A DNA stretch of 36,806 nt from the IMG/VR virus record IMGVR_UViG_3300008266_000822, positions 1 through 36,806 of that record. The stretch is one strand, 5' to 3'. Position numbers and translations under genes: made by a program. Source of the stretch: a virus. Positions 8,661 through 33,389 of the stretch are shown piece after piece. The notes beneath the pieces are model-generated. The model did not search any database. It was not told the origin of the DNA and was given only the letters and a program-made list of their open reading frames with translations. Numbering within the stretch: position 1 is the stretch's first letter; each line of letters starts with the position of its first letter.

Positions 8661-10376
8661 ATGCCAATATTTTATACAGATTCGGGTAGTTTTAACGATT
8701 TAAGTGTTACAGGTAGTGTAGTTGTAACTAATACAATTACTGCTCAAACACTTAATGTACAAACAATAACTTCATCTATTGATTTTGTAACAGGATCTAC
8801 TCGCTTTGGTAGCCTATCAAGTAACACACATCAATTTACGGGCTCAGTAAACATAACTGGTTCTCTCAATATAAACGGAACTTCATATACAGCTGCTACT
8901 AGTGGAACTAGTGGTACTGCAGGCTCTTCTGGCACATCAGGCCAAAATGGTTCAAGTGGTACTAGCGGTTCAAGCGGCACTAGTGGCACACGGGGGTCAA
9001 GCGGCACCTCAGGTCAAACAGGCTCAAGTGGCACAAGCGGCCAAACAGGTTCAAGCGGCACTAGCGGCCAAAACGGTTCAAGTGGCACCTCCGGCCAAAC
9101 AGGCTCAAGTGGCACCTCAGGCCAGAATGGTTCAAGCGGCACAAGCGGCCAAACAGGCTCTAGCGGTACCTCAGGCCAAAACGGTTCAAGCGGCACTAGC
9201 GGCCAAAACGGTTCAAGTGGCACCTCCGGCCAAACAGGCTCAAGTGGCACCTCCGGCCAAACAGGCTCAAGTGGCACCTCCGGCCAAACAGGCTCAAGTG
9301 GCACCTCAGGTCAGAATGGCTCTAGTGGTACTAGTGGTCAAACAGGCTCAAGTGGCACTTCTGGTCAAAATGGTTCAAGCGGCACCTCAGGCCAAAATGG
9401 CTCAAGCGGCACAAGCGGTCAAACAGGTTCTAGCGGTACTAGCGGCCAAAACGGTTCAAGTGGCACTTCTGGTCAAACAGGCTCAAGTGGTACTAGTGGC
9501 CAAAACGGCTCAAGCGGTACTTCAGGCCAAAATGGCTCAAGCGGCACCTCAGGTCAAACAGGTTCAAGCGGTACCTCCGGTCAAACAGGTTCAAGCGGTA
9601 CCTCCGGTCAAACTGGCTCGAGTGGCACAAGTGGTCAAACAGGCAGTAGTGGTACTAGCGGTCAAACTGGCTCAAGCGGCACTTCAGGCCAAACAGGCTC
9701 AAGCGGCACAAGTGGTCAAACAGGTTCAAGCGGTACTTCAGGTCAAACCGGTTCAAGTGGTACAAGCGGTCAAACAGGTTCAAGCGGTACTTCTGGTCAA
9801 ACTGGCTCAAGTGGTACTTCTGGTCAAAATGGTTCAAGCGGAACAAGCGGATCAAGCGGCACTAGTGGCACACGAGGGTCAAGCGGCACCTCAGGTCAAA
9901 CAGGCTCAAGCGGTACAAGCGGTCAAACAGGCTCAAGTGGCACCTCAGGCACATCCGCTCCTGGTATTACATCAGGCTCAAGCGGCACTAGTGGTCAAAC
10001 AGGAAGTAGTGGTACCAGTGGTATAAGTGCTGGTTTTACTAGCTTCTCTAAATCAATTGTCATAATTAATAATAGCCTTGTTGCTCAATCCGATACAGGC
10101 TCATTTGTAGGATGGAGAGCTCCATTTACCTGCACAGCTAGTTTAGTAGCAGGATTTAGAGATAGTGGATCTGGTTTAGTAGTAAATGCATTTAAAAATA
10201 CTGCTGCAACTACTTTGTTAGCTTCAAACCTTTCCGTTAACATAACTGGATCTTGGGTATCAAGCTCAACATTACAAAATACAAATTTTAATATAGGAGA
10301 TACATTATATTTTAATATAGTAAACTTTACTGGTTCTCTAACAGAAATAGGTGTGCAAGTTGATTTTATAAAATAA
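8661..10376 (+). CDS. Second collagen-like tail fibre
   Basis: This 571-residue fibre has three parts. Residues 1-80 (VVTNTITAQTLNVQ, HQFTGSVNITGSL, NGTSYTAATSGTSG) are a close copy of the modules before blocks A and B of the upstream fibre. Residues about 82-453 are Gly-X-Y repeats, largely a nine-residue unit GSSGTSGQTG or GSSGTSGQNG repeated more than thirty times, interrupted once by a short APGITSG sequence. Residues about 455-571 form a beta-rich C-terminal domain with VNAFKN and LYFNIVNFTGSL, resembling jelly-roll tips of phage fibres. No proline is present in the repeat apart from that interruption. It probably trimerises as a fibre shaft with a distal head; the head's ligand is unknown. 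Confidence 0.85.
   Translation: MPIFYTDSGSFNDLSVTGSVVVTNTITAQTLNVQTITSSIDFVTGSTRFGSLSSNTHQFTGSVNITGSLNINGTSYTAATSGTSGTAGSSGTSGQNGSSGTSGSSGTSGTRGSSGTSGQTGSSGTSGQTGSSGTSGQNGSSGTSGQTGSSGTSGQNGSSGTSGQTGSSGTSGQNGSSGTSGQNGSSGTSGQTGSSGTSGQTGSSGTSGQTGSSGTSGQNGSSGTSGQTGSSGTSGQNGSSGTSGQNGSSGTSGQTGSSGTSGQNGSSGTSGQTGSSGTSGQNGSSGTSGQNGSSGTSGQTGSSGTSGQTGSSGTSGQTGSSGTSGQTGSSGTSGQTGSSGTSGQTGSSGTSGQTGSSGTSGQTGSSGTSGQTGSSGTSGQTGSSGTSGQNGSSGTSGSSGTSGTRGSSGTSGQTGSSGTSGQTGSSGTSGTSAPGITSGSSGTSGQTGSSGTSGISAGFTSFSKSIVIINNSLVAQSDTGSFVGWRAPFTCTASLVAGFRDSGSGLVVNAFKNTAATTLLASNLSVNITGSWVSSSTLQNTNFNIGDTLYFNIVNFTGSLTEIGVQVDFIK
8904..10020 (+). repeat. 27-nt / 9-residue Gly-X-Y tandem array
   Basis: The DNA unit is 27 nt encoding GSS-GTS-GQT or GQN. 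Some neighbouring units are identical (around 9220-9310 and 9550-9610), indicating recent slippage or unequal exchange. A variant GTRG segment occurs near both ends (about 8981-9020 and 9859-9900) inside nearly identical flanking sequence, so a large internal segment may itself be duplicated. Confidence 0.9.
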
Positions 10377-10389
10377 TTATAAACAAGTT

Positions 10390-13300
10390 ATGGCAATAGT
10401 AAGTTCAGGATCCTTTGCAGCAACTAACAATAAAATTGCAGGTACAACGCTTGCATTTACTTCTTCACAAGCTATACGGTCTGGTGATTTGGCAGTATTG
10501 TTTATTGCAGCAGATAACTCAGCAGCAGGTACAGCAACAAACTTTGTTACTAGTGTAAGGGATAACGCTATTAACTATAACTTTCAGCAGGGTACAGGCT
10601 TTAATAATACAGCATATTCAATAGTATCACAATCAGATGGTAAAATATTGGTTGGTGGTGCTTTTACTACTTATAATGGACAAGATGCTCCTAATATTGT
10701 TCGTTTACATACAGATGGAACTTTAGATACTAGTTTTATTCCTAATTATAGATTAGTTGATGGCTCCGTTTTTAAATTAGCTATACAACCTAATGTAACT
10801 GGGTCTTATTATAGTGGAAGCGGAGTGTGGAGTGTAGGAGGAGCATTTATTAATGTTAGAGCAGATCTTACATCCGCTGGTACTCAAAATGCAGCTTTAA
10901 TTTTTGGAGGCGATCTCAGCTCGGTTGTTTGTAATCTAACTGAAGAATATAATGGATCTGCATGGTCTGCAGGAGGTAACTTAATTACTGCTAGATCATA
11001 TATAGGAGGAGCTGGCAGCCAAAATGCAGCCTTAGCTGCAGGAGGAACTACTACACTCCCAGCAGTTACACAACAAACTATTACGGAAGAATATAATGGA
11101 TCTACTTGGGCAGCTGGAGGAGCAATGACTATTGCTAAATATGATGCAGCAGGAACAGGCACCCAAAATGCTGGATTAAGTATTCTTGCTAGCTCACCAG
11201 GACTTTCAGAAGAATATAATGGTACTTCTTGGACTACTGGTGGTAGCATAATTAATTCATTTAGAAATTCTGCAACAGGTACAGGAACCCAAAATGCAGC
11301 CTTATCTATCGGTGGTGGAACACCAATCGCAAGAACATGTACAGAAGAATATAATGGTATTTCTTGGTCAACTGGTGGTGCTTTGAATACTGCTAGAATT
11401 GTAGCGGCAGCTGGTACTCAAAATGAAGCTTTAGCCTTTGGCGGCACAGCCCCTGCTACATGCACAGAAGAATATAATGGTACTACTTGGTCAACAATAA
11501 GTGTTACTTTTAACACTGCTAGATCTGCTAATATTGGAGCTGGTATTCAAAATGCAGCTTTAGCTATTGGTGGATTTGTATCTTCTACCAATACCGCATG
11601 CACAGAAGAATACACAGCCACAACAACATCCACTTGCATCTCAGACAAAATCATAGCAGTAGGCACTATACCTAATGGTGCTATTCGCCTTAACCCAGAC
11701 GGTACTGAAGATCCATCATTTAATGTAGGTACTGGTTTTGATAATACTGTATGTACTATAATTGTACAAGATGTTGCTGGTGGATATGTTGGTGGTGCCA
11801 CTTGGGCAGCCGGAGGAACACTAATCGTTGCCAGAGCAGGCTTAGCAGGTGCTGGGACACAAAACGAAGCATTAGCTTTTGGAGGATCAAACCCAGCAGA
11901 TGTAACATGTACAGAAGAATATAATGGATCTACTTGGGCAGCCGAAGGAACACTAATCGTTGCCAGATCAAGCTTAGCAGGCACCGGTACTCAAAATGCA
12001 GGATTAGCATTTGGTGGAAATAATCCAACAAGTTTGTCCTGTACAGAAGAATATGATGGTACTTCATGGGCAACAGGTGGTACTTTAATTACTGCTAGAA
12101 ATGGTTTAGCAGGGGCAGGTACACAAAACGCCGCTTTAGCTATTGGTGGATTTGTATCTCCTACCAATACCGCATGCACAGAAGAATACAACGGTACTTC
12201 ATGGACAGTAGGAGGTACTTTAATTACTGCTAGATCTGGCCTAGTAGGTGCCGACACTCAAGATGCAGCTTTAGTCTTTGGAGGAATAGATACACTAGGA
12301 ATCCGAATAGGATGCACAGAAGAATATAACGGATCTACTTGGGCAGCCGGAGGAACACTAATCGTTGCCAGAGCAGGCTTAGCAGGTGCTGGGACACAAA
12401 ACGAAGCATTAGCTTTTGGTGGAAGTACTATAAGTTTAACATTCAGATGCACAGAAGAATACAACGGAACTTCATGGACAGCAAAAGGTACTTTAATTAC
12501 TGCTAGAAGTTCATTAGCAGGAGCCGGTACCCAAAATGCTGCTTTAGCTTTTGGTGGAGCAACACCAGTTCCCGTTACAGTAGCATGCACCGAAGAATAT
12601 ACTATTACTGGTACAACATACACAAACAAACTCATCTTCGGCGGCGCCTTCACCAGCTACAACGGTATTACCTACAGTGGTAGTGCTCGTATTGATGGAG
12701 GTGGAGCTATAGATACATCATTCAATATAGGCGATGGCTTTAGTCCGGTTGATGTAAGATGTTATCAATTTTATAATGGCGGTGCTTGGATAGCAGGAGG
12801 AGCTCTAATAACTGCTAGAGATAATCTAGCAGGCGCCGGCACTCAAAATGAAGCTTTAGCTTTTGGTGGAGATTGCACAGGTTTTCCCTCAGTAGCAGTA
12901 TCCTGCACTGAAGAATATAATGGTTCTATATGGACAGCAGGTGGTGCTTTAATTAATGCTAGAGATAATCTAGCAGGCGCCGGCACTCAAAATGCAGGCC
13001 TAGCCTTTGGAGGACAAACACCAACAACAGTATCATGCACAGAAGAATATGATGGTTCTACTTGGACAGCAGGCGGTAATTTAATTGTTTCTAGATTTGC
13101 TTCAGCAGGAGCAGGCACCCAAAATGCAGGATTAGCTATTGGTGGATTTACACCTGCTGGGTCTAGTGTAGAAGAATATAATGGGTCTATTTGGACAACA
13201 GGTGGTAATTTAATTACTGCTATGGGGTATTTAGGAGGTGTAGGTACTCAAAATGAAGCCTTAGCATTTGGAGGATTTTCACAGGTGGGTCCAACAATTC

Positions 13301-15588
13301 GTTTATCATGCACAGAAGAATATAATGGTACCTCTTGGATAGCCGGTGGTACTATGGCTTGTGCTAGAACTGATTTAGGAGGAGCAGGTACTCAAAATGC
13401 AGCTCTTGCATTTGGAGGATCATCTCAAACACCAATTACACAATTTTCTACAGAAAGATATGATGGTACTTCTTGGGTGAATGGTAATAATTTAATTACT
13501 TATAGATTTAGTCTAGCAGGTGTAGGCACTCAAAACACAGCATTAGCAGTTGGTGGGGGATTTTCTGGGGTTCTTACTTGTACTGAAGAATATAACAGCC
13601 CCTCCTTATTTGCAGTAGGCAATTTCACCTCAGTCTCAGGCTCAACACGTAACCGTATTGCTCTCCTCAATGCACTTACCGGTGACCTCATCTCAACATC
13701 ATCATTCAACATAGGTAGCGCAGGCTTCAACGCAGCCGCCAACAGCATCGCTGTTCTACCAGACAACAGCATCGTTGCTGTAGGAGCGTTTACAGCATAC
13801 TCCGGTTCAAATATAAACCGTATAGTAAAAATTAATACTGATGGAACATTAGATACTGCATTTTCTGCTTCTATTGGTGCTGGATTGAATAACACTGGGA
13901 GTGTTGTTGTGAATTATCCTTCTAGTGGTGTTGATGTTTGGACGGCAGGAGGCGCTTTAATTACTGCTAGAGAAGTTGCTGCCGGCACCGGAACCCAAGA
14001 TGCTGCTTTAACAGCTGGTGGAGGTCCAGGTGTTCCAGCTGGTAATCTTGCAGAAGAATATAATGGGTCTACCTGGTCTTCAGGAGGTAATTTAATTACC
14101 TCAAGATATTGGTTAGTAGGTATGGGTACTCAAAATGCTGCTCTAGTAGCTGGTGGACTTCTTGTTGGACCTAATACAGCTACAGGAATTAGTGAAGAAT
14201 ATAATGGATCTACTTGGGCCTCAGGTGGAACTATGGCTACTGCTAGAGCGCTTATGGGTCGTGCAGGAATCCAAAATGCTGCTTTAGTTATGGGTGGAGG
14301 TATTGGGGCACCGGCTCCTGCATGCATAAATAACACAGAAGAATATGATGGTTCTACCTGGACAGCCGGAGGGAACTTAATAGTTGCTAGACAATATTTA
14401 AATGGTGATGGCACCCAAAATGCTGCTGTTGCTTTTGGTGGATTTGTTTCAGTTGCAGTATCATGTACCGAAGAATATGATGGTACTTCATGGGCAACAG
14501 GTGGTACTTTAATTACTGCTAGAAATAGTTTAGCAGGGGCAGGTACACAAAACGCCGCTTTAGCTGTAGGAGGAGGAGATGCTATATCTCCTAGTCTAAG
14601 TTGTACAGAAGAATATGATGGGTCTACTTGGACAGCAGGTGGTGCTTTAATTACTGGTAGAATTCAATTAGCAGGAGCTGGCACTCAAGATGCAGGTTTA
14701 GCTTTTGGAGGAGGTACTCCAACCATTGTTTCTTGCACTGAAGAATATTTCTCATCTGAAGATACTCTTTTAATTGGAGGTACATTTACTCAATTCTCTG
14801 GTTCAACATTTAGTGGTTCTGTTCGTTTATCATTAAGTGGATCAAGAGACACTACATTCAACATAGGTTCTGGCTTCGGCGCAGCAGTAGACGTAGAAGA
14901 TTATTACATCCACTCCGATGATGATATCATAGCAGTAGGTGGTTTTACAACATACTCTGCTTCATTCTCCCCACAACCAAATCGTATCATCAAACTTAAT
15001 TCAAACGGTTCAGTTGATGCTGCAGGAATAGGAAATACATGGTCAAAAATATCAGAACGTTCATCAAACGATGCTGCAGGTGCAGGTTCAACATTAGCTT
15101 TATTTTATTTAACAGCTTCATACGATATACCTGCAGGCACAGCAATCACAGCTTCTTTTACAGCATCTATTACTGCCAAAGCAGCAACTGGATGGAGATT
15201 TGTTACAGATCAGCGGGCCATCGCTTATACAGGTTCTGTAACATCTTCTGCAGCTGGTGGTACTTCCCAACCTCTTCGTATAAACTTAGCCAACTTAACT
15301 AGTGGTAGTGGTAACTATTTATTTATAAGAGGGGTTGCATTTGAGAATACAAACACTACTACTTTTACACCAACAGCTAACTATACAACAATATCTGCTG
15401 ATGGTACTACGGGTGGCGCTGTAATTACTAACCAAAGTGTAAGAGGTGAATTTAGAATTTTAACTACTGCTTCATACTTTTCTAACCCAACATTGGGTGC
15501 TGCTTCTTCTCAAGCATCAATATTTTGGACATTCTATGAATCAGCAGCTGCTGCTAGAGGCAGAACATATTTTATTTTATTAGATTAA
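10390..15588 (+). CDS. Giant nested beta-propeller fibre/adhesin
   Basis: This 1732-residue protein starts with ATG at 10390 (context AAGTTATG). Residues 1-60 and about 1548-1732 look like two halves of one terminal domain (SGDLAVLFIAADNSA...VRDNA, then GNTWSKISERSS). Between them lie seven delta-60-type repeats (pattern DGKILVGGAFT, RL-DGTLDTSFN, GxGF). Four of these are each interrupted by about 800 nt coding six kelch-like repeats (W-AGG-LITAR, then GTQNAALAFGG, then CTEEYNGS). The GG, Y and W spacing fits kelch motifs. No signal peptide or enzyme motif is seen. Location after two fibre genes argues for a surface adhesin, with propeller faces as ligand-binding sites; this is inference. The repeat assignments are made by eye. 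Confidence 0.8.
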   Translation: MAIVSSGSFAATNNKIAGTTLAFTSSQAIRSGDLAVLFIAADNSAAGTATNFVTSVRDNAINYNFQQGTGFNNTAYSIVSQSDGKILVGGAFTTYNGQDAPNIVRLHTDGTLDTSFIPNYRLVDGSVFKLAIQPNVTGSYYSGSGVWSVGGAFINVRADLTSAGTQNAALIFGGDLSSVVCNLTEEYNGSAWSAGGNLITARSYIGGAGSQNAALAAGGTTTLPAVTQQTITEEYNGSTWAAGGAMTIAKYDAAGTGTQNAGLSILASSPGLSEEYNGTSWTTGGSIINSFRNSATGTGTQNAALSIGGGTPIARTCTEEYNGISWSTGGALNTARIVAAAGTQNEALAFGGTAPATCTEEYNGTTWSTISVTFNTARSANIGAGIQNAALAIGGFVSSTNTACTEEYTATTTSTCISDKIIAVGTIPNGAIRLNPDGTEDPSFNVGTGFDNTVCTIIVQDVAGGYVGGATWAAGGTLIVARAGLAGAGTQNEALAFGGSNPADVTCTEEYNGSTWAAEGTLIVARSSLAGTGTQNAGLAFGGNNPTSLSCTEEYDGTSWATGGTLITARNGLAGAGTQNAALAIGGFVSPTNTACTEEYNGTSWTVGGTLITARSGLVGADTQDAALVFGGIDTLGIRIGCTEEYNGSTWAAGGTLIVARAGLAGAGTQNEALAFGGSTISLTFRCTEEYNGTSWTAKGTLITARSSLAGAGTQNAALAFGGATPVPVTVACTEEYTITGTTYTNKLIFGGAFTSYNGITYSGSARIDGGGAIDTSFNIGDGFSPVDVRCYQFYNGGAWIAGGALITARDNLAGAGTQNEALAFGGDCTGFPSVAVSCTEEYNGSIWTAGGALINARDNLAGAGTQNAGLAFGGQTPTTVSCTEEYDGSTWTAGGNLIVSRFASAGAGTQNAGLAIGGFTPAGSSVEEYNGSIWTTGGNLITAMGYLGGVGTQNEALAFGGFSQVGPTIRLSCTEEYNGTSWIAGGTMACARTDLGGAGTQNAALAFGGSSQTPITQFSTERYDGTSWVNGNNLITYRFSLAGVGTQNTALAVGGGFSGVLTCTEEYNSPSLFAVGNFTSVSGSTRNRIALLNALTGDLISTSSFNIGSAGFNAAANSIAVLPDNSIVAVGAFTAYSGSNINRIVKINTDGTLDTAFSASIGAGLNNTGSVVVNYPSSGVDVWTAGGALITAREVAAGTGTQDAALTAGGGPGVPAGNLAEEYNGSTWSSGGNLITSRYWLVGMGTQNAALVAGGLLVGPNTATGISEEYNGSTWASGGTMATARALMGRAGIQNAALVMGGGIGAPAPACINNTEEYDGSTWTAGGNLIVARQYLNGDGTQNAAVAFGGFVSVAVSCTEEYDGTSWATGGTLITARNSLAGAGTQNAALAVGGGDAISPSLSCTEEYDGSTWTAGGALITGRIQLAGAGTQDAGLAFGGGTPTIVSCTEEYFSSEDTLLIGGTFTQFSGSTFSGSVRLSLSGSRDTTFNIGSGFGAAVDVEDYYIHSDDDIIAVGGFTTYSASFSPQPNRIIKLNSNGSVDAAGIGNTWSKISERSSNDAAGAGSTLALFYLTASYDIPAGTAITASFTASITAKAATGWRFVTDQRAIAYTGSVTSSAAGGTSQPLRINLANLTSGSGNYLFIRGVAFENTNTTTFTPTANYTTISADGTTGGAVITNQSVRGEFRILTTASYFSNPTLGAASSQASIFWTFYESAAAARGRTYFILLD
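10825..11613 (+). repeat. Kelch-like cassette K1 (six repeats)
   Basis: Six repeats, each running from W-GG through GTQNAAL-GG to EEY. The cassette is inserted in the second delta-60 repeat, between AIQPN and KIIAVG. The third and fifth repeats are shorter and the sixth lacks the first GG. Confidence 0.75.
11797..12600 (+). repeat. Kelch-like cassette K2 (six repeats)
   Basis: Six repeats inserted in the third delta-60 repeat, before NKLIFGGAFTSYNG. Repeats 1 and 5 share a stretch of more than 80 identical nucleotides (from about 11801 and 12341), indicating recent copying. Confidence 0.75.
12784..13593 (+). repeat. Kelch-like cassette K3 (six repeats)
   Basis: Six repeats inserted in the fourth delta-60 repeat, before FAVGNFTSVSG. 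Repeats 1 and 2 share RDNLAGAGTQN with near-identical DNA. The sixth has NGNN in place of the first GG. Confidence 0.75.
13933..14748 (+). repeat. Kelch-like cassette K4 (six repeats)
   Basis: Six repeats inserted in the sixth delta-60 repeat, before LLIGGTFTQFSG. Its fifth repeat is almost identical in DNA to the third repeat of K2 (about 14485-14570 against 12063-12150), showing exchange between cassettes. Confidence 0.75.
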
Positions 15589-15917: not shown

Positions 15918-16604
15918 ATGTCTGAAAACACAGAAAACAACCAAATACAAGTTACAGAAGATTTAAAGAACATCCTTGCTATCCTTAAACCAAATGATGC
16001 ACAACAAATTCTTCAATTAAAAGAAGAATTAGCTGACAACTGGAATAAGAAACAAATCTTTAGAACAGAAACCGAAATGCGTGTTTCAGTTCTTAACGAT
16101 GGTAAATTTCCAACAGTAGCAGCTAAGTACTGGCAATCAGTTAGAGAAATGTCAGCTCACTTTGATGCATTAATGAATCTTTCATTTGATATGAGACGTT
16201 CAACTGTTGAACGCCTTAAATTAGAGAAAAAAATGAAAGAAGCTGAAGAAGCTGCTGATCAATTGGAGATTATGTCACTTCAAATTGATTTAGATCAAAA
16301 TCTATATAATAAAGCTTGTATGGAACAAGTAGCTCACGATCGTGTTCGTGAAATTCAAACTTGGTCTAAATTAAAAACAGAATTGGATGATGGGTCATTT
16401 GATACAAAAGAAGTAAATACACATCAAGCCGTTAGCTTACACCATAGATTAGCCTACAGAGCAAGCGCATTAAATGAACACTCAGACCCAACCGAAGTAG
16501 CAAATGTAATGGGACAGCTTCAAACAATGGAGCGTTTGAAACAACAAAATGCTTTAACTCACGAAGCAGTTATGGCACAAAAACAGTTACAAAATAAGCA
16601 GTAA
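15918..16604 (+). CDS. Helical protein of unknown function
   Basis: This 228-residue protein is highly charged, almost entirely helical in composition and has no membrane segment. A coiled-coil-prone region lies near residues 95-125 (RRSTVERLKLEKKMKEAEEA). The C-terminal 40 residues are Gln/Met/Leu-rich and may form another helix pair. It starts at ATG 15918 (context CTGTTATG) and its stop overlaps the next ATG as TAATG. It sits between the fibre genes and the oxygenase cluster. It could be a scaffolding or assembly factor, but no family is recognised. Confidence 0.6.
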   Translation: MSENTENNQIQVTEDLKNILAILKPNDAQQILQLKEELADNWNKKQIFRTETEMRVSVLNDGKFPTVAAKYWQSVREMSAHFDALMNLSFDMRRSTVERLKLEKKMKEAEEAADQLEIMSLQIDLDQNLYNKACMEQVAHDRVREIQTWSKLKTELDDGSFDTKEVNTHQAVSLHHRLAYRASALNEHSDPTEVANVMGQLQTMERLKQQNALTHEAVMAQKQLQNKQ

Positions 16605-17188
16605 TGCAATTTATATATTCAAACCCTAAGGCTTTAGATCCTGGGTTTTGTGAAGAGGTTATAGAATTATTTGAGCAATCTCCATTAAAGCAACCTGGTG
16701 CTTTTAGGTACAATGAAGAAGTTGTACAAAAGCACGATGTGAAGAAATCAATGGATATTTCTTTTGATCCAACCTTTCTACAACACCCAGATTGGGGAAA
16801 ACCTTTAAGATATCTAGTTGATGTTGTTGAAGAAAATATATCAAAGTATATTTTTAGACACGAGCAAGCATTCCAAAAAATGGATGACTTTAGATTAGAT
16901 ACCTTATTTAATATGCAACGCTATGAGCCTGGGGAAGCATTTTATGGGTGGCACTGTGAAAGAGCAGGCATTCCTGCTTCGGCAAGAGTGCTTGTTTGGA
17001 TGGTTTATCTTAATACAGTAAATGATGGAGGTGGAACTCAATTCTATTACCAAAATCATGTCGAGCAACCAGAACAAGGCAAATTATTAATTTGGCCTAC
17101 TGATTGGACTCATACCCACCGAGGAATTCCTTCACCAACACAAACAAAATATATTTTTACAGGGTGGTATACCCATTATAAAAAGTAA
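16604..17188 (+). CDS. 2OG-Fe(II) oxygenase (prolyl-hydroxylase-like)
   Basis: This 194-residue protein has the P4H-like double-stranded beta-helix signature. WHCE supplies His117 and the acidic Glu119 as iron ligands. His172 in THRG is the likely distal histidine, with Lys182 in TKYIFTGW likely binding 2-oxoglutarate. The VWMVYLNTVNDGGGTQF stretch (about 131-147) is the typical core strand. The family couples 2-oxoglutarate decarboxylation to hydroxylation. The substrate cannot be read from sequence. It overlaps the preceding stop by one base and heads an array of five oxygenase-like genes. Phage members of this family are common and mostly uncharacterised. Confidence 0.8.
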   Translation: MQFIYSNPKALDPGFCEEVIELFEQSPLKQPGAFRYNEEVVQKHDVKKSMDISFDPTFLQHPDWGKPLRYLVDVVEENISKYIFRHEQAFQKMDDFRLDTLFNMQRYEPGEAFYGWHCERAGIPASARVLVWMVYLNTVNDGGGTQFYYQNHVEQPEQGKLLIWPTDWTHTHRGIPSPTQTKYIFTGWYTHYKK

Positions 17189-17191
17189 GTT

Positions 17192-17380
17192 ATGTTTCCT
17201 TTAAAACCATACAACGATTTCAAACCAACTTCTAATTGGAATGATTTTTATTATTTTAAAAATGTATTCAATGATCAAATGATCAAAGAATTAGAGGATA
17301 TGGTTTATGCTAATTACAAATTCTCTAAAATTATTATTTCCTTTAGCACTACAAGCAAACGATGCTTTATTTCATTTTGA
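17192..17380 (+). pseudogene. N-terminal remnant of a broken oxygenase
   Basis: The first roughly 45 residues (MFPLKPYNDFKPTSNWNDF, then FKNVFNDQMIKELEDMVY) match the usual start of PKHD-type 2OG-Fe(II) oxygenases. After about 17325 the frame runs into unrelated sequence and stops at 17380. The catalytic part continues in another frame from about 17335. Start ATG 17192 (context AAGTTATG) looks like a genuine gene start. Confidence 0.6.
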
Positions 17381-17699
17381 TATTGATGTTGTAACTGATC
17401 CAATTCACTATGTTATTTATCCTGAAGACGGAGGTCATCTTGATTGGCATATGGATGTTGGAGCATATGGTGTTAATAAAAGAAAACTAGCAATGACAGT
17501 TCAATTATCAGATTCAACTGATTATGAAGGTGGTGAATTTGAAATTTGGATGGGTGGTAAAGATGGTTTTGTTACTGTACCAAGAGAGAAAGGTGATGTA
17601 ATTATTTTTCCTGCTTTCTGTATGCATAGAGTAAAACCAATAACAAAAGGAACAAGAAAATGTTTGGTTTTTTGGACAGGGGGTCGTCCCTTTAGATAA
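17307..17699 (+). CDS. 2OG-Fe(II) oxygenase, C-terminal catalytic part
   Basis: This reading frame carries an intact catalytic core. HMD (His48, Asp50) and distal His107 in FCMHRV are the iron ligands, Arg117 likely binds 2-oxoglutarate, and GGEFEIWMGG is the usual core strand. Homology starts at about LFPLALQANDALFHFD (nt about 17334), so the listed ATG at 17307 is probably not a natural start. The true gene should begin at 17192 in a different frame. Some 25-35 residues normally between the two parts seem absent, so this is an internal deletion plus frame change rather than a simple one-base error. It is either a broken gene or an assembly fault. Confidence 0.7.
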   Translation: MLITNSLKLLFPLALQANDALFHFDIDVVTDPIHYVIYPEDGGHLDWHMDVGAYGVNKRKLAMTVQLSDSTDYEGGEFEIWMGGKDGFVTVPREKGDVIIFPAFCMHRVKPITKGTRKCLVFWTGGRPFR

Positions 17700-17711
17700 T
17701 AAATAATAGTT

Positions 17712-18299
17712 ATGGAATTTAAGGTTTTTGAACAATTATGGTTTGCAACACCAGTGTGGGAATGTCCTGTTTCTGGAATTGATAACGATGAAATTAAACA
17801 ATACTGTTTAAAAGTACGTGAAAAGAAACCTGGTGCTACTATCTCTAATAGAGGAGGGTGGCACAGCAACGAATTACTTTTTCCCGTACCCGATTCACTC
17901 CAAACACTAATAGATGATATGACTGTGTTTGTAAATGATGTTTGCTATCGTTATACAGGTACACAATTAAAATTTGGTAATTTATGGATTAATATTAATG
18001 GTCATCATGACTATAATTTACTCCATGACCACCAAAAAAGTGTACTGTCCGGAGTATATTATGTAGATGTACCTGATGAAAATATGGGTGATTTAGTATT
18101 GCATAGAGGAGATAATGCTGAGTTCTTTTTAAAAGACATTAATGAGCAAACAATGGCAAATGCTCTTAATTGTAGCAAACAAGCTAAAACATCCACATTC
18201 TATTTATTTCCCAGTTGGGTTAAACACCATGTTGAACGTAATGAAAGTCATAAAGAAAGAATATCTGTAGCTTTTAATTTTGTTCCTTTAAATGCTTAA
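17712..18299 (+). CDS. 2OG-Fe(II) oxygenase, TIGR02466-like
   Basis: This 195-residue protein fits the TIGR02466 type of phage oxygenase. It begins with an F-TPVW motif (residues 11-16). It has HDH (His105, His107) followed by VLSGVYYVDVP, and ends with FPSWVKHHVERN (His172/His173) and Arg183 in ERISVAFNF. The two-histidine motif with a distal histidine is the expected iron site. The substrate is unknown. It is the third oxygenase of the array, preceded by an AT-rich leader ending AGTTATG. Confidence 0.8.
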   Translation: MEFKVFEQLWFATPVWECPVSGIDNDEIKQYCLKVREKKPGATISNRGGWHSNELLFPVPDSLQTLIDDMTVFVNDVCYRYTGTQLKFGNLWININGHHDYNLLHDHQKSVLSGVYYVDVPDENMGDLVLHRGDNAEFFLKDINEQTMANALNCSKQAKTSTFYLFPSWVKHHVERNESHKERISVAFNFVPLNA

Positions 18300-18301
18300 A
18301 T

Positions 18302-18955
18302 ATGAATAAGGATAATGTGCATGTTTTTAGTTTATTTCCTACACCATTATATGTTACAACATATGACGGTGACACAACTGAAATAGTAAAATACCTTGAT
18401 AGTTGTGAAATGAATGAAGCACACGGTAGTGGCTATGGAATGATCTCTAAAAATAGTTATATAATTGATAATCCTGTTTGTAAACCATTAGCAGATTTTG
18501 TAATGTATCATTTCAATCAATTTGCTACTGGCATTATGAGATATGCATATGATGAATTACAGTTTGCCCAATCCTGGCTAACATACAAAATGCCAGGGCA
18601 ATTTCACAAAGCACACACTCACCCAAACACACTAATTGCAGGTGTATTTTACTATGACGTACAAGAAGGAGACTCAGCAATATGTTTTAGTAAAGAGGTA
18701 AGATCATATCATCGTTCCTATTTAGAACCTTCAATATGTGCTGATTATCAAGATCATCTTTATTCACAAGAAGAAATATACTTTCAACCTAAGCAGAATA
18801 ATCTTATTATATTTCCTTCGCATTTGATGCACGGTGTTCCTCCTAATAATACTAATAGAGTAAGAAAAGCATTAGGTATTAATGCATTAACTAAAGGTAC
18901 ATTAGGTGATCAAGAAACTATTAGTGAAATAATATTTGGACGTTATGCTAAATAA
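18302..18955 (+). CDS. 2OG-Fe(II) oxygenase, tandem paralogue 1
   Basis: This 217-residue protein has HTHP (His105, His107), LIAGVFYYDV and FPSHLMHGVP (His177), with Arg near 186-188 for 2-oxoglutarate. It begins with LFPTPLY, the same family opening as its neighbours. It is clearly paralogous to the next gene (shared LDSCE, KPLADF, QSW, HTHPN, GVFYY and FPS blocks), so the pair arose by tandem duplication. It starts 2 nt after the previous stop. The substrate is unknown. Confidence 0.8.
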   Translation: MNKDNVHVFSLFPTPLYVTTYDGDTTEIVKYLDSCEMNEAHGSGYGMISKNSYIIDNPVCKPLADFVMYHFNQFATGIMRYAYDELQFAQSWLTYKMPGQFHKAHTHPNTLIAGVFYYDVQEGDSAICFSKEVRSYHRSYLEPSICADYQDHLYSQEEIYFQPKQNNLIIFPSHLMHGVPPNNTNRVRKALGINALTKGTLGDQETISEIIFGRYAK

Positions 18956-19607
18956 AGAAACAATTGAAGTATTACCTCTATTTCCATCACCTCTGTTTAC
19001 AGCAGTCTATACTGATGGTGATTTAGATAAAACAATTAAACATCTAGATAGCTGTGAGTTAATTGATGGAGGTAAAGCAAGCGAATATGGTTTTCATTCA
19101 AAAGATACTTATATTCTAGAACATAAAGAATGCAAACCATTAGCTGATTTTATAATGCAATCCTTACTCCATTTTGCAAAAGAAATATTGATGTATGCAT
19201 ACGATGAATATGCATTCTCACAATCATGGATCTCACACAAATCCCCAGGCCAACACCACACAATGCATACTCACCCTAATAGCCTAATTTCAGGTGTATT
19301 TTATTATGGTGAGGAAGATGAAGATATTCCTGCAATTTCATTTCATAAACCAATTGTAGGAACAAATGTTTCTTACCTAGCACCTAAATATCAATCAGAT
19401 AGAAGAAAATCACAATACGCTTGGGATTCATTTTCAGTTAATTACACTCCAGGATTATTATTGTTATTTCCCTCTTATGTATTTCACTCTGTTCCTGTAA
19501 ATAAAAGTAAATTAACAAGGAAAAGTTTAGCATTTAATGTTTTACCAAAAGGTAAAATTGGTGATGAACATAGTTTAACTGAATTATTATTTAATAAAGT
19601 AGGATAA
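18945..19607 (+). CDS. 2OG-Fe(II) oxygenase, tandem paralogue 2
   Basis: I place the start at ATG 18945 (MLNKETIEVLPLFPSPLF, 220 residues), not at the upstream TTG at 18936, because the paralogue's homology starts near here and ATG is used throughout. The start overlaps the previous stop by 11 nt. Iron-site residues are HTHP (His108, His110) and a later FHSVP histidine, with SGVFYYGEED as the core strand. A longer insertion (YQSDRRKSQYAWDSF) distinguishes it from its twin. Its stop overlaps the next ATG (TAATG). Confidence 0.8.
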   Translation: MLNKETIEVLPLFPSPLFTAVYTDGDLDKTIKHLDSCELIDGGKASEYGFHSKDTYILEHKECKPLADFIMQSLLHFAKEILMYAYDEYAFSQSWISHKSPGQHHTMHTHPNSLISGVFYYGEEDEDIPAISFHKPIVGTNVSYLAPKYQSDRRKSQYAWDSFSVNYTPGLLLLFPSYVFHSVPVNKSKLTRKSLAFNVLPKGKIGDEHSLTELLFNKVG

Positions 19608-20768: not shown

Positions 20769-23700
20769 ATGAAAATACTTTTTATTGCTCCTCACCTATC
20801 TACAGGAGGAATGCCTCAATACCTTTACAAACAAATGGAGGTTTTAAATGAAAGTTGTGAAGTATGGTGTATTGAATGGGATAACATTACAGGGGGTGTT
20901 TTAGTAGTTCAACGTAATAGAGTCGTCAACTTATTGGGAAACAGACTAATTACCCTAGGAGAACCCAGAGAAAAACTATTTGAACATATTGAAAAAATAA
21001 ACCCAGATGTTATTCACCTCCAGGAAATTCCTGAAATGTTTATGCCATATGATTTAGCTGTAAAGTTATATAATTCAAATAGAAAATATAAGATAGTTGA
21101 AACTTCTCATGATTCTAGTTTTGATATATCAAATAAAAAACACTTTCCTGATCACTTTGCAATGGTTAGTCAATATCAAGTTGAAGCATATAAACCATTG
21201 AATATACCTTGTGAATTAGTAGAATACCCAATTGAATACAAAACAAAAACAAAATCTAGAGAAGAATTATTAGCTGAGTTAGGATTAGATCCTAATAAAA
21301 AACATGTTATTAATGTAGGTTTGTTTACCTCTAGAAAAAATCAAGCCGAAGTTGTTGAATACGCAAAACAAATGCAGGATTATCCAATTCAATTCCATTT
21401 TATTGGTAATCAAGCTGATAATTTTAAATATTATTGGGAACCAATAATGAAGGATTTTCCTCCTAACTGTAAATGGTGGGGAGAAAGAAGTGATGTAGAT
21501 GCATTTTATCAAATGGCTGATCTATTCTTATTTACTTCTAGAGGACATATCAATGATAAAGAAACAATGCCTTTAGTAATTAGAGAAGCTATTAGTTGGA
21601 GAGTTCCTTCTTTAATTTATAATTTGGACGTATATTTAAACTACTTTAATAAGTACGATAATATTGAATATTTAAACTTTAGTGATAAAAATCAAAACAT
21701 AGAAAAAATATTAAACAAACTAAATATAAAAATGAACACAAATAGCATAAGCAATTATTTTGATGTTGATATTCAACCTGAAGAAAATAAAATTTCGATA
21801 AATTATAAAAGGGCTGAACCTAATTCCTATAAAATTTCTATTAAGGAAAAAGATTCTAATGCTCCTCTCTATTGGTTTCCCGTTACTTTTATAAACTATA
21901 GCAGTTGGTGGGTAATTCCAACACCAACATCATCCATAAATTTTGCTACTGACCCGGCTGTAGGAACTATAACGGTTGAATTTTATGATGAAAATGATAA
22001 CTTCTTATTTTTAAAGGATTTATTTGTTAAAAATGTTATTAAAAAAGAAGTAAAACTAAATATTGATAATCCATTTGATTGTTTATTCAACAATTATCGA
22101 GAAATGTTCCTCCAGAACAAATATGATTGCTATGAGTTAGATAAAATGGAAACTGTTTTTGATGTTGGAGCAAATAGTGGATTATTTTCACTTTTAGCAA
22201 TTAATAAAGGAGCTAAAAAAGTTTATGCATTTGAACCTAATCAAGAATCGTTAATTAATTTGAATTGCTTAGTAAAAGATTTAAATGTAGAAGTAATAGA
22301 TAAAGCTATATACACTAAAGATGAAGATCTTACTTTCTATATAGACCCAAGTAATACTACAATCGGAAGTATATCTGAAGATCATATTAAAAATAATGGT
22401 AGTGAGGTAAAACAAATAACTGTACCTGCTGTGTCTTTAAAAACATTCTTTGATCAAAATAATATTGAAAGATTATCATTATTAAAGATGGATATTGAAG
22501 GGGCTGAATATGATATTATAGAAAATCTTGAAGATGAAATTTTTGAAAAAATAGATAATCTTCTTATAGAATTTCATGATAATGAAGGTGAAAGAGTAGA
22601 AAAATTAATTCAAACCTTAGTTAAAAAGGGATTTGATGTTGATCAAATTAGGGATCAAAATACTGAAAACAACAACAGTATTATAGAAGAAGCATATAAA
22701 TCTTCTCCTATTGGAACTATTTTTGCTAAAAAATCTCCTGAGGAAAAGTTACTAACTGTACTTATTCCTACATACAATCATGAAGAATATATTGAACAAT
22801 GTATTGATAGTGTTTTAATGCAACAAACATTATTTAACTTCAATATCTTAATATCTGATGATTGCTCTACAGATAATACTTGGAATATCATACAAAAATA
22901 TAAAGATATTCCAAATGTAATCCTACACAGAAATGAAAAAAATCAAGGAGCTGTCATTCGTAGGACCTATGATCTTTTAAAGAAAATTAGTTCTGAATAT
23001 GTTACTATTCTAGATGGTGATGATTACTATGTCGATAAAAGTAAATTACAAAAACAGATAAACTTTTTAAAGAATAATAAAGAATATTCTGTTTACAGTG
23101 TTGGATATTATATAAAAAATCCTGGTGATGATAATTTCATGAGTAGTTATTATTGGGGTATAAAAGGAGAGGTAATCTTAAGAGATAACATGAAAGCCAA
23201 TTATATTTCTTTTGGTTTTATGTTTAGAAATAATCTTATTAAAGACATGGAATTCCCTGATTGGTTTTTCCATGAAGATGTTTTTGATGCTTACTGGGCA
23301 TTAAATACTATACTTTTAGAAAAAGGAAAAGGAAGAAATGATAAATGGGTAGGAGGAGTTTATAGAATTACCCCCAATGGTGCCTATGGAGAAAGAAGCC
23401 ATGACTGGAAAGTAGAAGTAACTACAAAGCAAAGCCAAGTAATAACCTCTGCTTACCCAGATGTGAATAAAAATTTCCTAGTACATGAATCTAATATAAA
23501 TTTACAAGACATATATAGTGGACATTTTGCAGTACAATATAAGGAGGTTCCCTATTTAAAATGCCCTATGGATTATGCTCTCTACCAAATGCTAATTATG
23601 TCTATTAAACCAGACCTAATCATAGAAATCGGAACCTATATGGGTGGGGGAGCTTTATATTATGCTGATTTGTTGTATTTATTAGGAAAAGGAGAAGTTC

Positions 23701-24098
23701 ATACAATTAATCTCTATAATGAAATACACGATCAAAAAGTATTTAATCATAGTCAAATTAAGTTTTTCTATGGTGGTTTTGAAGAATATGATATAGAAAA
23801 AAATACTAAAGGGTTTGAAAAAATACTAGTTATAGATGATGGATCTCACACTTATGAAGATGTATTAAAATCCCTAAATAAATTTAGTAAAATTGTATCT
23901 AAAGATTCTTACTTTATTGTTGAAGATGGAGTGATTGATTTTACTGGTCTTTCTGATACTTACAATGGAGGGCCTCGTAAAGCTATTAATGAATTTTTGC
24001 AAACAAATTCTGATTTTGTTATAGACAGACATTGGTGTGATTATTTTGGAACCAATTCTACTTTCAACCCAGACGGATACCTAAAAAGAATAAACTAA
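20769..24098 (+). CDS. Four-domain fusion: GT4 + FkbM + GT2 + CmcI-like
   Basis: This 1109-residue protein contains four enzyme domains. Residues 1-310 form a GT4-type GT-B glycosyltransferase (STGGMPQYLY near the N-terminus, EX7E-type Glu265/Glu273). Residues about 330-435 are a beta-rich linker. Residues about 440-635 are an FkbM-type SAM methyltransferase (VFDVGANSGLF at 463-473, MDIEGAEYDII at 574-584). Residues about 660-870 are a GT2 domain (LIPTYNHEEYIEQ, SDDCSTDNTW, DGDD at 749-752). Residues about 905-1109 resemble CmcI/cephalosporin-hydroxylase-like methyltransferases (IIEIGTYMGGGALYYA from 951, IDDGSHTYEDV from 1022, YFIVEDG). It could build and cap an O-methylated sugar chain. There is no membrane segment, so it is likely cytoplasmic. 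Acceptor unknown. Confidence 0.8.
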   Translation: MKILFIAPHLSTGGMPQYLYKQMEVLNESCEVWCIEWDNITGGVLVVQRNRVVNLLGNRLITLGEPREKLFEHIEKINPDVIHLQEIPEMFMPYDLAVKLYNSNRKYKIVETSHDSSFDISNKKHFPDHFAMVSQYQVEAYKPLNIPCELVEYPIEYKTKTKSREELLAELGLDPNKKHVINVGLFTSRKNQAEVVEYAKQMQDYPIQFHFIGNQADNFKYYWEPIMKDFPPNCKWWGERSDVDAFYQMADLFLFTSRGHINDKETMPLVIREAISWRVPSLIYNLDVYLNYFNKYDNIEYLNFSDKNQNIEKILNKLNIKMNTNSISNYFDVDIQPEENKISINYKRAEPNSYKISIKEKDSNAPLYWFPVTFINYSSWWVIPTPTSSINFATDPAVGTITVEFYDENDNFLFLKDLFVKNVIKKEVKLNIDNPFDCLFNNYREMFLQNKYDCYELDKMETVFDVGANSGLFSLLAINKGAKKVYAFEPNQESLINLNCLVKDLNVEVIDKAIYTKDEDLTFYIDPSNTTIGSISEDHIKNNGSEVKQITVPAVSLKTFFDQNNIERLSLLKMDIEGAEYDIIENLEDEIFEKIDNLLIEFHDNEGERVEKLIQTLVKKGFDVDQIRDQNTENNNSIIEEAYKSSPIGTIFAKKSPEEKLLTVLIPTYNHEEYIEQCIDSVLMQQTLFNFNILISDDCSTDNTWNIIQKYKDIPNVILHRNEKNQGAVIRRTYDLLKKISSEYVTILDGDDYYVDKSKLQKQINFLKNNKEYSVYSVGYYIKNPGDDNFMSSYYWGIKGEVILRDNMKANYISFGFMFRNNLIKDMEFPDWFFHEDVFDAYWALNTILLEKGKGRNDKWVGGVYRITPNGAYGERSHDWKVEVTTKQSQVITSAYPDVNKNFLVHESNINLQDIYSGHFAVQYKEVPYLKCPMDYALYQMLIMSIKPDLIIEIGTYMGGGALYYADLLYLLGKGEVHTINLYNEIHDQKVFNHSQIKFFYGGFEEYDIEKNTKGFEKILVIDDGSHTYEDVLKSLNKFSKIVSKDSYFIVEDGVIDFTGLSDTYNGGPRKAINEFLQTNSDFVIDRHWCDYFGTNSTFNPDGYLKRIN

Positions 24099-24102
24099 CA
24101 CT

Positions 24103-25182
24103 ATGCCTCCAGAAATAAAACCTATTATAATAGTAGATGCTTTTTTTCACAATGACAATTGTGTAAGAACTTTTAAAAATTATTTATCTTCTATTAAAAA
24201 AACTGGTCTCCCCATAATGTTGGTGACAAACAGTAAATTTGAACAAGCATTAATTGATGAAGTAGATTATCTTCTATACGATCACAATAACAGACTATTT
24301 AAAAAAGACTATTCAGATGTAGAAACTATTGCTATGTGGTATAGAGATAACCACAAATATTTTTCAATAGCAATTAAAGCATTTCAAAAACATGGTTTGT
24401 CTGTTTTGTCTAATTTATATCATTCTACTAATTTAGCCTTATCTTTAGGTTATACCCATTTTTTTAGAATAGAATATGACTGTACAGTTCCTAGTATAGA
24501 AAATGTTAAAAATATTATAGCTGAAACCCAAGAACAAAATAAAAAGGGATACATCTATATAAACCAAAACAAATATATTTGTTTCCAATTCTGGTATTTT
24601 GCTTTAGATTATTTTACTGAAATTTTCCCCAAAATAAACAATGAAGATGATTATATTATAGCAAAACGAAATTTCAATAGTGATGAAAATTTCATGATTG
24701 CTGAAGAGTTTGTTCTTAATATAGTTAGATCCTCAGAAGGAGGGTTTGATAATGTAGTAAATAAACAAGCAAATATAATATTTGATGATTTCCCTGATTC
24801 TTCCTGGAATACCCTTATATCCCCCTCAGAATCTGATCTGATAATAGATGGATTTATATCATCTATTCATAGAGTAGGATATACGGTTGAAGGAGTTGAT
24901 CCACAATATACCCCTACAGACAATACTAAATTTGCTATAATAACATGGAATTGTAGTTCAGAAAATAATAATAAATCTATTGTTAAAATACTAAGAAATA
25001 ATCAAGAACCACAAATTATAGAACATAACTTATATAGTAGTAATGATAATTATGTAGAAACGTTTGATTTAACAGAAGAAAATGTAGAAGTACAAATTAC
25101 TATGAATGATCATCAAACTAGATCTGTAATTATTAATAAAGATAATATACATTTAATAAATAACATACTTGTTTTAAATTAA
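24103..25182 (+). CDS. Glycosyltransferase-like protein with beta tail
   Basis: This 359-residue protein has an N-terminal alpha/beta domain (residues about 5-240) resembling GT-A enzymes. It has PIIIVDAFFHND, MLVTNSKFE, and FFRIEYDC near residues 122-129, which could be a degenerate DxD metal site. Residues about 245-359 are a beta-rich accessory domain. It is paralogous to the next gene (shared LVT, VDYxxYD and FP-DDY pattern). A donor-binding assignment is tentative. Spacing is 4 nt from the fusion gene and 3 nt to its paralogue. Confidence 0.5.
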   Translation: MPPEIKPIIIVDAFFHNDNCVRTFKNYLSSIKKTGLPIMLVTNSKFEQALIDEVDYLLYDHNNRLFKKDYSDVETIAMWYRDNHKYFSIAIKAFQKHGLSVLSNLYHSTNLALSLGYTHFFRIEYDCTVPSIENVKNIIAETQEQNKKGYIYINQNKYICFQFWYFALDYFTEIFPKINNEDDYIIAKRNFNSDENFMIAEEFVLNIVRSSEGGFDNVVNKQANIIFDDFPDSSWNTLISPSESDLIIDGFISSIHRVGYTVEGVDPQYTPTDNTKFAIITWNCSSENNNKSIVKILRNNQEPQIIEHNLYSSNDNYVETFDLTEENVEVQITMNDHQTRSVIINKDNIHLINNILVLN

Positions 25183-30528: not shown

Positions 30529-30585
30529 ATGGCAGAAAAAATCTTATCTCCTGGCGTATTCCAAAATGAATCAGATCAATCATAG
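30529..30585 (+). pseudogene. gp18: N-terminal remnant of tail sheath gene
   Basis: ATG 30529 opens a frame reading MAEKILSPGVFQNESDQS and then stops. This is the characteristic start of T4-like sheath proteins. The downstream sheath body is in a different frame. The normal roughly 50 residues that follow this N-terminus are absent, so the joint is an internal deletion with frame change. Confidence 0.65.
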
Positions 30586-32732: not shown

Positions 32733-33389
32733 ATGGCCGAATTAAAAATCCCAACAGAAACAGTTACATTACCCTCAAAAGGTTTATTGTACCCCAAAAG
32801 TGGTATTGTTATTGATAAATTACTTCAATCATTAATTGTTACACCAATTGATTATAACGAATTGTTAATTGGTGATAAAAACGCAATATTAGTTGCTGCT
32901 CGTGTTTTAGGTTATGGTAAAGACTATAATATTAATTATGGTGGTAAAGAAATTACTATTGATCTATCCAAGCTAGAAGATAAAATAATTGATGAATCTT
33001 TATATAAGCGCGGAATAAATGAATTTCCCTTCACTCTACCTCATTCTGGTAACAATATTACTTTTAAGTTATTAACACATGGTGATGAACAAAAAATTGA
33101 AGCTGAAATTAAGGGGTTGCAAAAAATTAACCCAAATGTAACTACTGATGTTACAACTCGTTTAAAATATATGGTTACATCTGTTGAAGGTAAGCGTGAT
33201 GCTAAAGATATTCGTGATTTTGTTGATAATTACTTAATCGCTAAAGATTCAAGAGCACTACGCCAATACTATGCAAAAGTATCCCCAGACATTAATTTAA
33301 AATATATACCAGAAGATGTAGATTATGTAGGGGAGGGCATAGATATTCCAATATCTGTTAACTTTTTTTGGCCTGATTCTGGAATATAG
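32733..33389 (+). CDS. gp26-like baseplate hub / tail chaperone protein
   Basis: This 218-residue protein begins MAELKIPTETVTLPSKGLLYP and ends in FFWPDSGI, like the T4 gp26-type proteins of environmental myoviruses as I recall them. Residues 21-35 read YPKSGIVIDKLLQSL. Relatives have an additional roughly 30 residues here (a segment containing a KYMTAKEEDIL-like motif) between YP and the VIDKLL helix, so an in-frame internal deletion is suspected. The gene lies two positions before the tape measure, the place of tail assembly chaperones in many phages. A T7 run near its 3' end could shift ribosomes into the next frame. Confidence 0.65.
   Translation: MAELKIPTETVTLPSKGLLYPKSGIVIDKLLQSLIVTPIDYNELLIGDKNAILVAARVLGYGKDYNINYGGKEITIDLSKLEDKIIDESLYKRGINEFPFTLPHSGNNITFKLLTHGDEQKIEAEIKGLQKINPNVTTDVTTRLKYMVTSVEGKRDAKDIRDFVDNYLIAKDSRALRQYYAKVSPDINLKYIPEDVDYVGEGIDIPISVNFFWPDSGI
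33363..33369 (+). other. T7 run, candidate frameshift site
   Basis: In the gp26-like frame this reads TTT TTT T followed by GG. Moving +1 (or -2) here joins the 212 residues before it to a 91-codon open frame ending at 33645. A one-base homopolymer sequencing error would look the same. Confidence 0.4.

Follow-up and report, generated by a model that had tools for sequence, protein, structure and literature searches.

The window analysed here is a virus record of 36,806 bases. Its plus strand carries, from 10390 to 15588, a single open frame with an ATG start and zero internal stops, encoding a protein of 1,732 aa in which kelch-like units are nested inside delta-60-type units (Table 1). This nested gene lies directly after two collagen-like tail-fibre genes and upstream of the tail sheath and tube genes. 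On its 3' side, four 2OG-Fe(II) oxygenase genes and genes for glycosyltransferases/methyltransferases are followed by the tail sheath (at 30566) and the tube (at 32155). The first-ranked isolate for the tail sheath protein is Flavobacterium phage vB_FspM_immuto (51.9% over 86%), and a Microcystis phage matches it at 53.5% over 56%.

The gene is present in three further IMG/VR records (L001-L003), where it is 100% identical. A diverged orthologue with the same design was found in a related phage (P0004, 1,191 aa), identical in two records (L006, L008). In a tblastn search of the whole protein against 50,697 phage records, one weak match was obtained (26% identity over 33%, E 7e-8), and the C-terminal segment had zero matches in phage records. 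The N- and C-terminal segments, when joined, matched zero Pfam families at E≤1 and gave chance-level matches in PHROGs (E 0.13 and 0.26); the C-terminal segment by itself likewise found a chance-level PHROGs match only (E 0.37).

Table 1. Features of the nested propeller gene and of the two fibre genes preceding it (window positions; residues are those of the 1,732-aa protein).
Feature	Position	Strand	Remarks
Collagen-like tail-fibre protein, 2,357 aa	1571..8644	+	PF01391
Collagen-like (SGTSG) tail-fibre protein, 571 aa	8661..10376	+	Directly upstream of the nested gene
Whole gene, nested propeller protein	10390..15588	+	1,732 aa; identical in L001-L003
N-terminal segment, residues 1-60	10390..10569	+	60% identity to the orthologue
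Delta-60 unit 1, uninterrupted	10570..10743	+	PF17164 residues 81-116
Delta-60 unit 2, strand A and N linker	10762..10827	+	
Kelch cassette 1, six units, residues 147-411, inside unit 2	10828..11622	+	
C linker and remainder of delta-60 unit 2 (weakest)	11623..11721	+	PF17164 residues 420-444
Delta-60 unit 3, strand A and N linker	11722..11802	+	
Kelch cassette 2, six units, residues 472-737, inside unit 3	11803..12600	+	Cassette modelled
C linker and remainder of delta-60 unit 3	12601..12723	+	PF17164 residues 746-778
Delta-60 unit 4, strand A and N linker	12724..12786	+	
Kelch cassette 3, six units, residues 800-1069, inside unit 4	12787..13596	+	Missing from the orthologue
C linker and remainder of delta-60 unit 4	13597..13707	+	PF17164 residues 1074-1095
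Delta-60 unit 5, uninterrupted	13708..13863	+	PF17164 residues 1124-1158
Delta-60 unit 6, strand A and N linker	13864..13938	+	
Kelch cassette 4, six units, residues 1184-1453, inside unit 6	13939..14748	+	Missing from the orthologue
C linker and remainder of delta-60 unit 6	14749..14859	+	PF17164 residues 1460-1490
Delta-60 unit 7, uninterrupted	14860..15030	+	PF17164 residues 1509-1544
C-terminal segment, residues 1548-1732	15031..15585	+	72% identity to the orthologue

An earlier note, made from the letters alone, had counted seven delta-60-type repeats, the first, fifth and seventh of them intact, and this count is borne out. The Pfam family DUF5122 (PF17164), which is of the delta-60 type and labelled as a beta-propeller, scores 153.7 bits on the window protein (cut-off 27) over seven stretches, whose positions were determined in record G002, which has the identical gene, and then converted to window-protein residues. 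Units 1, 5 and 7 are uninterrupted. The NCBIfam model delta_60_rpt (TIGR02608) matches three stretches (E 2e-19), its 69.2 bits lying below the whole-protein cut-off of 76.5. Taken singly, the interrupted units fall under the PF17164 cut-off (17.7-24.2 bits), and so does the intact unit 7 (23.6 bits). The poorest-scoring one is unit 2 (17.7 bits). Our own delta-60 profile gives seven matches on the real protein at E<0.1; with no E cut-off, or with the cassettes removed, unit 2 is split into two small pieces, resulting in eight matches. Relatives align across unit 2 as one unit. The position at which the PF17164 match starts was considered as a sign of interruption (1-2 in the intact window units, 4-7 in the interrupted ones) and was abandoned as a test, since the match begins at position 6 in units 4 and 6 of the orthologue as well, although these are intact.

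The number seven recurs among viral relatives. Among complete viral DUF5122 ORFs that have five or more units and lack gaps >30 aa, 20 of 26 contain 7, 14 or 21 units, the remaining six having five (one ORF), six (four) or 13 units (one); since several are near relatives, the 26 ORFs do not represent independent cases. Once the cassettes are removed, five of six uninterrupted seven-unit viral proteins (L103, L109, L153, L142 and L143) align one-to-one with units 1-7, with units crossing all four cassette sites. The exception, L149, omits unit 2, and L090, which has six matched units, aligns with units 2-7. This supports units 1-7 forming one seven-unit platform. The repeat counts and the unit-for-unit alignment also lend indirect support to a closed ring of seven, and the units may close in this way.

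The inserted sequences are all kelch-like. With a profile built from 19 of the window protein's own kelch-like units, 24 such units are recognized, in four groups of six, confirming the exactly six repeats that had been proposed for each of the host units 2, 3, 4 and 6. The cassettes measure 795, 798, 810 and 810 nt, within the 790-816 nt given earlier. Cassette 2 and its flanks (window 11752-12633) were modelled with AF2 from an alignment of 52 cassettes. The model has a mean pLDDT of 94.2, a pTM of 0.90 and 24 strands. A Foldseek search against the PDB returned the designed propeller SAKe6 first (E 4.8e-19), followed by Plasmodium kelch, NS1-BP and KEAP1, and VIA-align superimposed the model on the NS1-BP kelch domain over 257 residues (Z 33.5). 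Virion proteins of phages PhiPA3 and Noxifer are also among the fold matches. By sequence, the profile of the 52 cassettes (A7) matches SAKe6FR (4.6e-28), KLHL12 (1.4e-16), KLHL17 (3.2e-16) and NS1-BP (3.6e-16). Pfam Kelch families have zero matches in the window protein at E≤1, and the orthologue has one sub-threshold Kelch_1 match (15.5 vs 20.1 bits), located in delta-60 unit 7, outside the cassettes. The assignment is thus kelch-type by fold and remote profile, and not membership of a Pfam Kelch family. The profile searches suggested in the earlier note therefore agree with it for the delta-60 repeats (PF17164) and, through remote profiles (KLHL12 1.4e-16), for the kelch repeats, and the Pfam Kelch models do not. 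For one cassette of the four, cassette 2, its expectation of a closed six-bladed kelch-type propeller is supported by the predicted structure. Neither outcome that the earlier note named as refuting, a lack of kelch or delta-60 matches or a prediction of an open solenoid, was obtained.

All four host units are split at the same place, as had been claimed, namely between strand A (e.g., TIIVQ) and strand B (e.g., KLIFGG). From strand A to strand B, the inserts in units 2, 3, 4 and 6 span 286, 286, 278 and 283 aa, the cassettes being flanked by linkers of 3-13 residues. The orthologue aligns with the window protein from end to end and has the same seven delta-60 units, with cassettes in units 2 and 3 only. 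Its units 4 and 6 are whole where the window protein carries cassettes 3 and 4, so that filled and empty states of these two sites both exist in nature. Identity between the two proteins is 64% for the platform with the ends and 49% for cassettes 1-2; cassette 1 of the orthologue is very divergent, being 40-46% identical to the other five cassettes. IMG/VR was scanned with the C-terminal segment, with the N-terminal segment plus unit 1 and with units 4-6, and the nested forms found were the window gene (L001-L003) and L006/L008 only. The other loci from these scans, among those examined, have delta-60 repeats without cassettes.

This combination is rare in the sample searched. The window and the loci sampled from pattern-based IMG/VR scans (for DUF5122, the best 80 of 82 confirmed stretches) provided 1,239 distinct ORFs, 97 of them with kelch units and 68 with delta-60 units. 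Both types of repeats occur together in two of the 1,239, the window form and its orthologue, and the kelch profile has zero matches in the 66 other DUF5122 ORFs of the sample. In nine of these others each unit was inspected in turn, and seven of the nine have a gap >100 aa (L164-L166, which have the same 148-aa gap as L163, were left out). Their gaps consist of linkers, poorly matching units and other sequence.

The whole-length orthologue was also modelled, from a nine-row alignment (A6). Mean pLDDT is 50.4 and pTM 0.38. Block pLDDT is mostly 70-89 over residues 751-1000 (53-69 in 4 of the 25 blocks), mostly 26-60 in the cassettes and about 24-42 in the N- and C-terminal segments. The best structural alignments are to seven-bladed and other propellers (Z about 20-21), with the seven-bladed 7big reaching Z 21.0 over 253 residues (rmsd 2.8). 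They span model residues about 420-1042 and exclude unit 1. A6 itself is mis-registered. Six of its seven uninterrupted rows are one unit off, the gap of cassette 1 having swallowed unit 2, and in five of these six the last unit falls on the C-terminal segment. This may explain both the poor model and the structural matches that reach residue 1042. Because A6 is out of register, the orthologue model provides no fair test of ring closure, either way. Another alignment with kelch rows added (A8) was dropped, its delta-60 rows being down to 16-20% identity with the query.

Six units is the commonest kelch module. Among the 128 kelch clusters in ORFs uncut by the locus end, 76 have exactly six units and 83 have 6, 12 or 30. 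Six-kelch cassettes are found in unrelated scaffolds: in L005 they lie between short repeated domains, whereas the large proteins of L044 and L051 carry them close to the N terminus. Collagen repeats occur together with cassettes in L009 and L176, and with both a cassette and a Peptidase_S74 chaperone in L018. A 3,091-aa ORF in L010 contains five kelch clusters (4, 6, 6, 5 and 5 matched units). The presence of the cassette in such different phage scaffolds, among them L005, L044, L051 and the fibre-like proteins, indicates that module insertion is a wider habit; what is special here is the insertion into another propeller repeat.

The cassettes also carry possible traces of exchange. An exact 83-nt repeat links two places within cassette 2, and exact repeats of 57 and 38 nt are shared by cassettes 2 and 4, where the mean identity of units from different cassettes is 64%. 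The shared repeats suggest that kelch units were exchanged or copied between these two cassettes, the inserts of delta-60 units 3 and 6. Of all cassette pairs, 2 and 3 are the most similar (63.7%). A tree of the cassettes distinguishes neither local duplication from several acquisitions nor gain from loss at sites 4 and 6. GC content is 43.1% in the cassettes and 39.3% in the platform with the ends (39.5 and 34.6% in the orthologue), a difference too small to argue for a foreign origin of the cassettes.

Twenty other ORFs of the window have a match in the L006 record, and for 17 of them identity is 80-97%. The three low values belong to 24103-25182 (25%), 33681-36197 (49%) and 32733-33389 (71%); the fibre gene that immediately precedes the nested gene shares 73% over 601 columns. 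Three more window ORFs (195-327 aa) are without an L006 counterpart among the matches listed. Since three matched ORFs and the upstream fibre gene have also diverged, divergence alone does not single out the nested gene.

Both repeat families have known representatives. Like the cassette, the kelch propellers of KEAP1, KLHL12, NS1-BP, the designed SAKe6 and the phage protein CBB_552 consist of six four-stranded blades, with VIA Z scores of about 32-33, Foldseek E values of about 1e-19 to 1e-16 and a remote profile match. Unlike them, the window protein lacks a Pfam Kelch match, and its cassette is a hairpin insert in a propeller repeat, four times over. With other DUF5122/delta-60 proteins (PF17164, TIGR02608) the window protein shares its seven units, but four of these are each interrupted by an entire second propeller. 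In a whole-word search of open-access PMC text, which yielded one paper, DUF5122 appeared almost unstudied. The structure 2ymu is presumably a WD-type propeller. In the available part of PMC8078820, PF17164 was modelled with 2ymu_A as the best template. Integrin alpha, in the text accessible from PMC12422189, has a ligand-binding alpha-I domain inserted in a seven-bladed propeller. That is one insert, of vWFA fold, placed between blades 2 and 3, whereas the window protein has four propeller inserts within blades. The phi11 paper reportedly describes a beta-propeller platform in the receptor-binding protein. Excerpts of PMC7048315 present beta-propellers as receptor-binding platforms in S. aureus phages (phi11/80alpha RBP), and those of PMC12923769 describe eCIS eBAP3 fibres in which receptor-binding beta-propellers occur together with collagen-like shafts. 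As far as these excerpts go, both systems have a single five-bladed platform or lectin propeller, with nesting not described. Knowledge of a described example had been denied in the earlier note, and a search of open-access PMC text likewise yielded no description of one propeller being inserted several times into another. The two repeat families are familiar, and so is the insertion of a single domain into a propeller; the repeated propeller-in-propeller arrangement looks new.

Our preferred reading, at a probability of about 0.62, is that the gene encodes a variable, multivalent tail-fibre adhesin, in which six-kelch modules are plugged into the hairpins of a seven-unit propeller. The product would be part of the phage virion and would most likely serve as the distal adhesin of a tail fibre. 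A seven-unit delta-60 (DUF5122) beta-propeller, presumably closed, would form its platform, and in four of the seven blades the hairpin of strands A and B would hold a self-contained six-bladed kelch propeller. Up to four kelch heads could thereby be displayed on one face of the platform, and those on the adjacent blades 2-3-4 may crowd one another, given linkers of 3-13 residues. The heads would bind host surface glycans or proteins with avidity, the swap or addition of a head would change fibre recognition, and cassettes might be exchanged through recombination between repeats. A role in the fibre is supported by the proteins that join cassettes to collagen or collagen and S74 (L018, L176, L009) and by the tail-fibre gene neighbourhood, and from these we infer an adhesin. 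A bolder version adds a third level to the nest. Residues 1-60 and the last 185 residues would form a split beta-sandwich with the seven-bladed ring in one of its loops, and the six-kelch module would be gained, lost or exchanged among the seven hairpins, tuning valency (0 to 7 heads) and specificity like a revolver. We regard this version as doubtful. The split sandwich is unsupported, the terminal segments having no Pfam family, chance-level PHROGs matches and a block pLDDT of about 24-42 in the orthologue model.

Other readings place the protein, or its parts, differently. It might be a structural or decorating part of the virion, such as a fibre collar, a whisker or a capsid or tail decoration, with the cassettes as spacers or glycan-binding decoration rather than the receptor-binding tip. 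The appearance of PhiPA3 and Noxifer virion proteins among the fold matches agrees with this, as does the kelch-type giant-phage protein CBB_552, which was found in the virion and to which the consulted portion of PMC5259590 gives no known receptor role. However, two collagen-like tail-fibre genes immediately precede the gene, cassettes occur in collagen and collagen/S74 proteins, and 18 of the 20 other matched ORFs are less diverged than the nested one, so this role, though a serious candidate, seems to us rather unlikely. The closed kelch propellers could also be beads on a string, the delta-60 stretches forming partial sheets or pairing with another chain. Closure of the seven-unit ring is not seen in any model, and the orthologue model has a pTM of 0.38 with unit 1 outside its best alignments. 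Yet the repeats number seven, relatives count 7, 14 or 21 units, five of the six uninterrupted seven-unit proteins align unit for unit with the platform, and residues 751-1000 of the orthologue mostly reach pLDDT 70-89, with Z about 21 to seven-bladed propellers. Such a string is unlikely.

The origin of the arrangement has its own alternatives. If a cassette-bearing blade had been duplicated, instead of cassettes being repeatedly inserted into existing blades, the single site shared by the four inserts and the closeness of cassettes 2 and 3 would follow. But units 4 and 6 of the orthologue are empty at the matching positions, with platform homology on both sides, and the total is seven units in the window form and the orthologue alike, making blade duplication quite improbable. 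Repeats can fragment or mislead assemblies, according to the section consulted of PMC9238414, and a kelch gene and a delta-60 gene might have been fused in this way. Since three further IMG/VR records contain an identical gene, a diverged orthologue (two records) shares its design and the frame is a single one, an artefact is nearly refuted and hardly credible. The nested gene is almost certainly neither a product of chance nor an assembly error.

A propeller plugged repeatedly into matching hairpins of another, with filled and empty sites among related phages, would be a novel architecture for binding proteins that are both multivalent and evolvable. The nested propellers would follow a natural design rule, insertion where the N and C ends meet with linkers of 3-13 residues, and they raise the testable question of whether closed repeat domains are tolerated as plug-ins in any propeller hairpin. 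For the uncultured myovirus group to which the record belongs, the gene likely encodes a variable host-recognition protein.

A second protein carrying several kelch cassettes within a single host protein is encoded by record L010. Its 3,091-aa ORF contains five kelch clusters, with 4, 6, 6, 5 and 5 matched units, and the stretches between them, judged by eye, are apparently repeated and beta-sandwich-like. The cassette is also tied to tail fibres, because one ORF of record L018 combines a six-kelch cassette with collagen repeats and a Peptidase_S74 chaperone. An otherwise different viral ORF (1,820 aa, record L090) contains a delta-60 (DUF5122) block, and kelch cassettes are absent from it. 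Six-kelch cassettes were also seen on three contigs (L177, L178 and L181) binned to archaeal MAGs (Nitrosotalea, Methanothrix); these contigs may belong to viruses or may have been binned wrongly.

At cassette 3 of the main gene, a YN motif occurs both in the strand of the host unit (QFYNG) and at the end of the cassette (EEYN); this shared motif, present at one site only, might be the mark of recombination at short homology. In the gene directly upstream of the main gene, exact identity with two of the records that carry an identical main gene (L001 and L003) starts at position 9213, inside the collagen-like repeats, which suggests that this repeat array varies from record to record.

The 838-aa ORF close to the tail tube gene is 49% identical between records (384 aligned residues); its neighbours mostly reach about 90% between the same records. 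Its family matches were all sub-threshold.

Two of the oxygenase genes (18302-18955 and 18936-19607) have no counterpart in the otherwise similar record of L006 among the matches listed; a separate comparison gave weak cross-matches of 24-25%. The gene of the 1,109-aa multi-family protein is placed between the tail sheath and fibre genes, and its product may glycosylate virion proteins.

Coordinates of the features, in the window unless a record is named
Feature	Position
Collagen-like tail-fibre gene	8661-10376
Host strand at cassette 3	12766-12780
End of cassette 3	13585-13596
Four 2OG-Fe(II) oxygenase genes	16604-19607
1,109-aa protein with successive family matches to GT1, FkbM methyltransferase, GT2 and rhamnosyl O-methyltransferase	20769-24098
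838-aa ORF	33681-36197
Multi-cassette ORF	L010:5962-15234
Cassette, collagen and chaperone ORF	L018:3373-7332
DUF5122 ORF	L090:6387-11846
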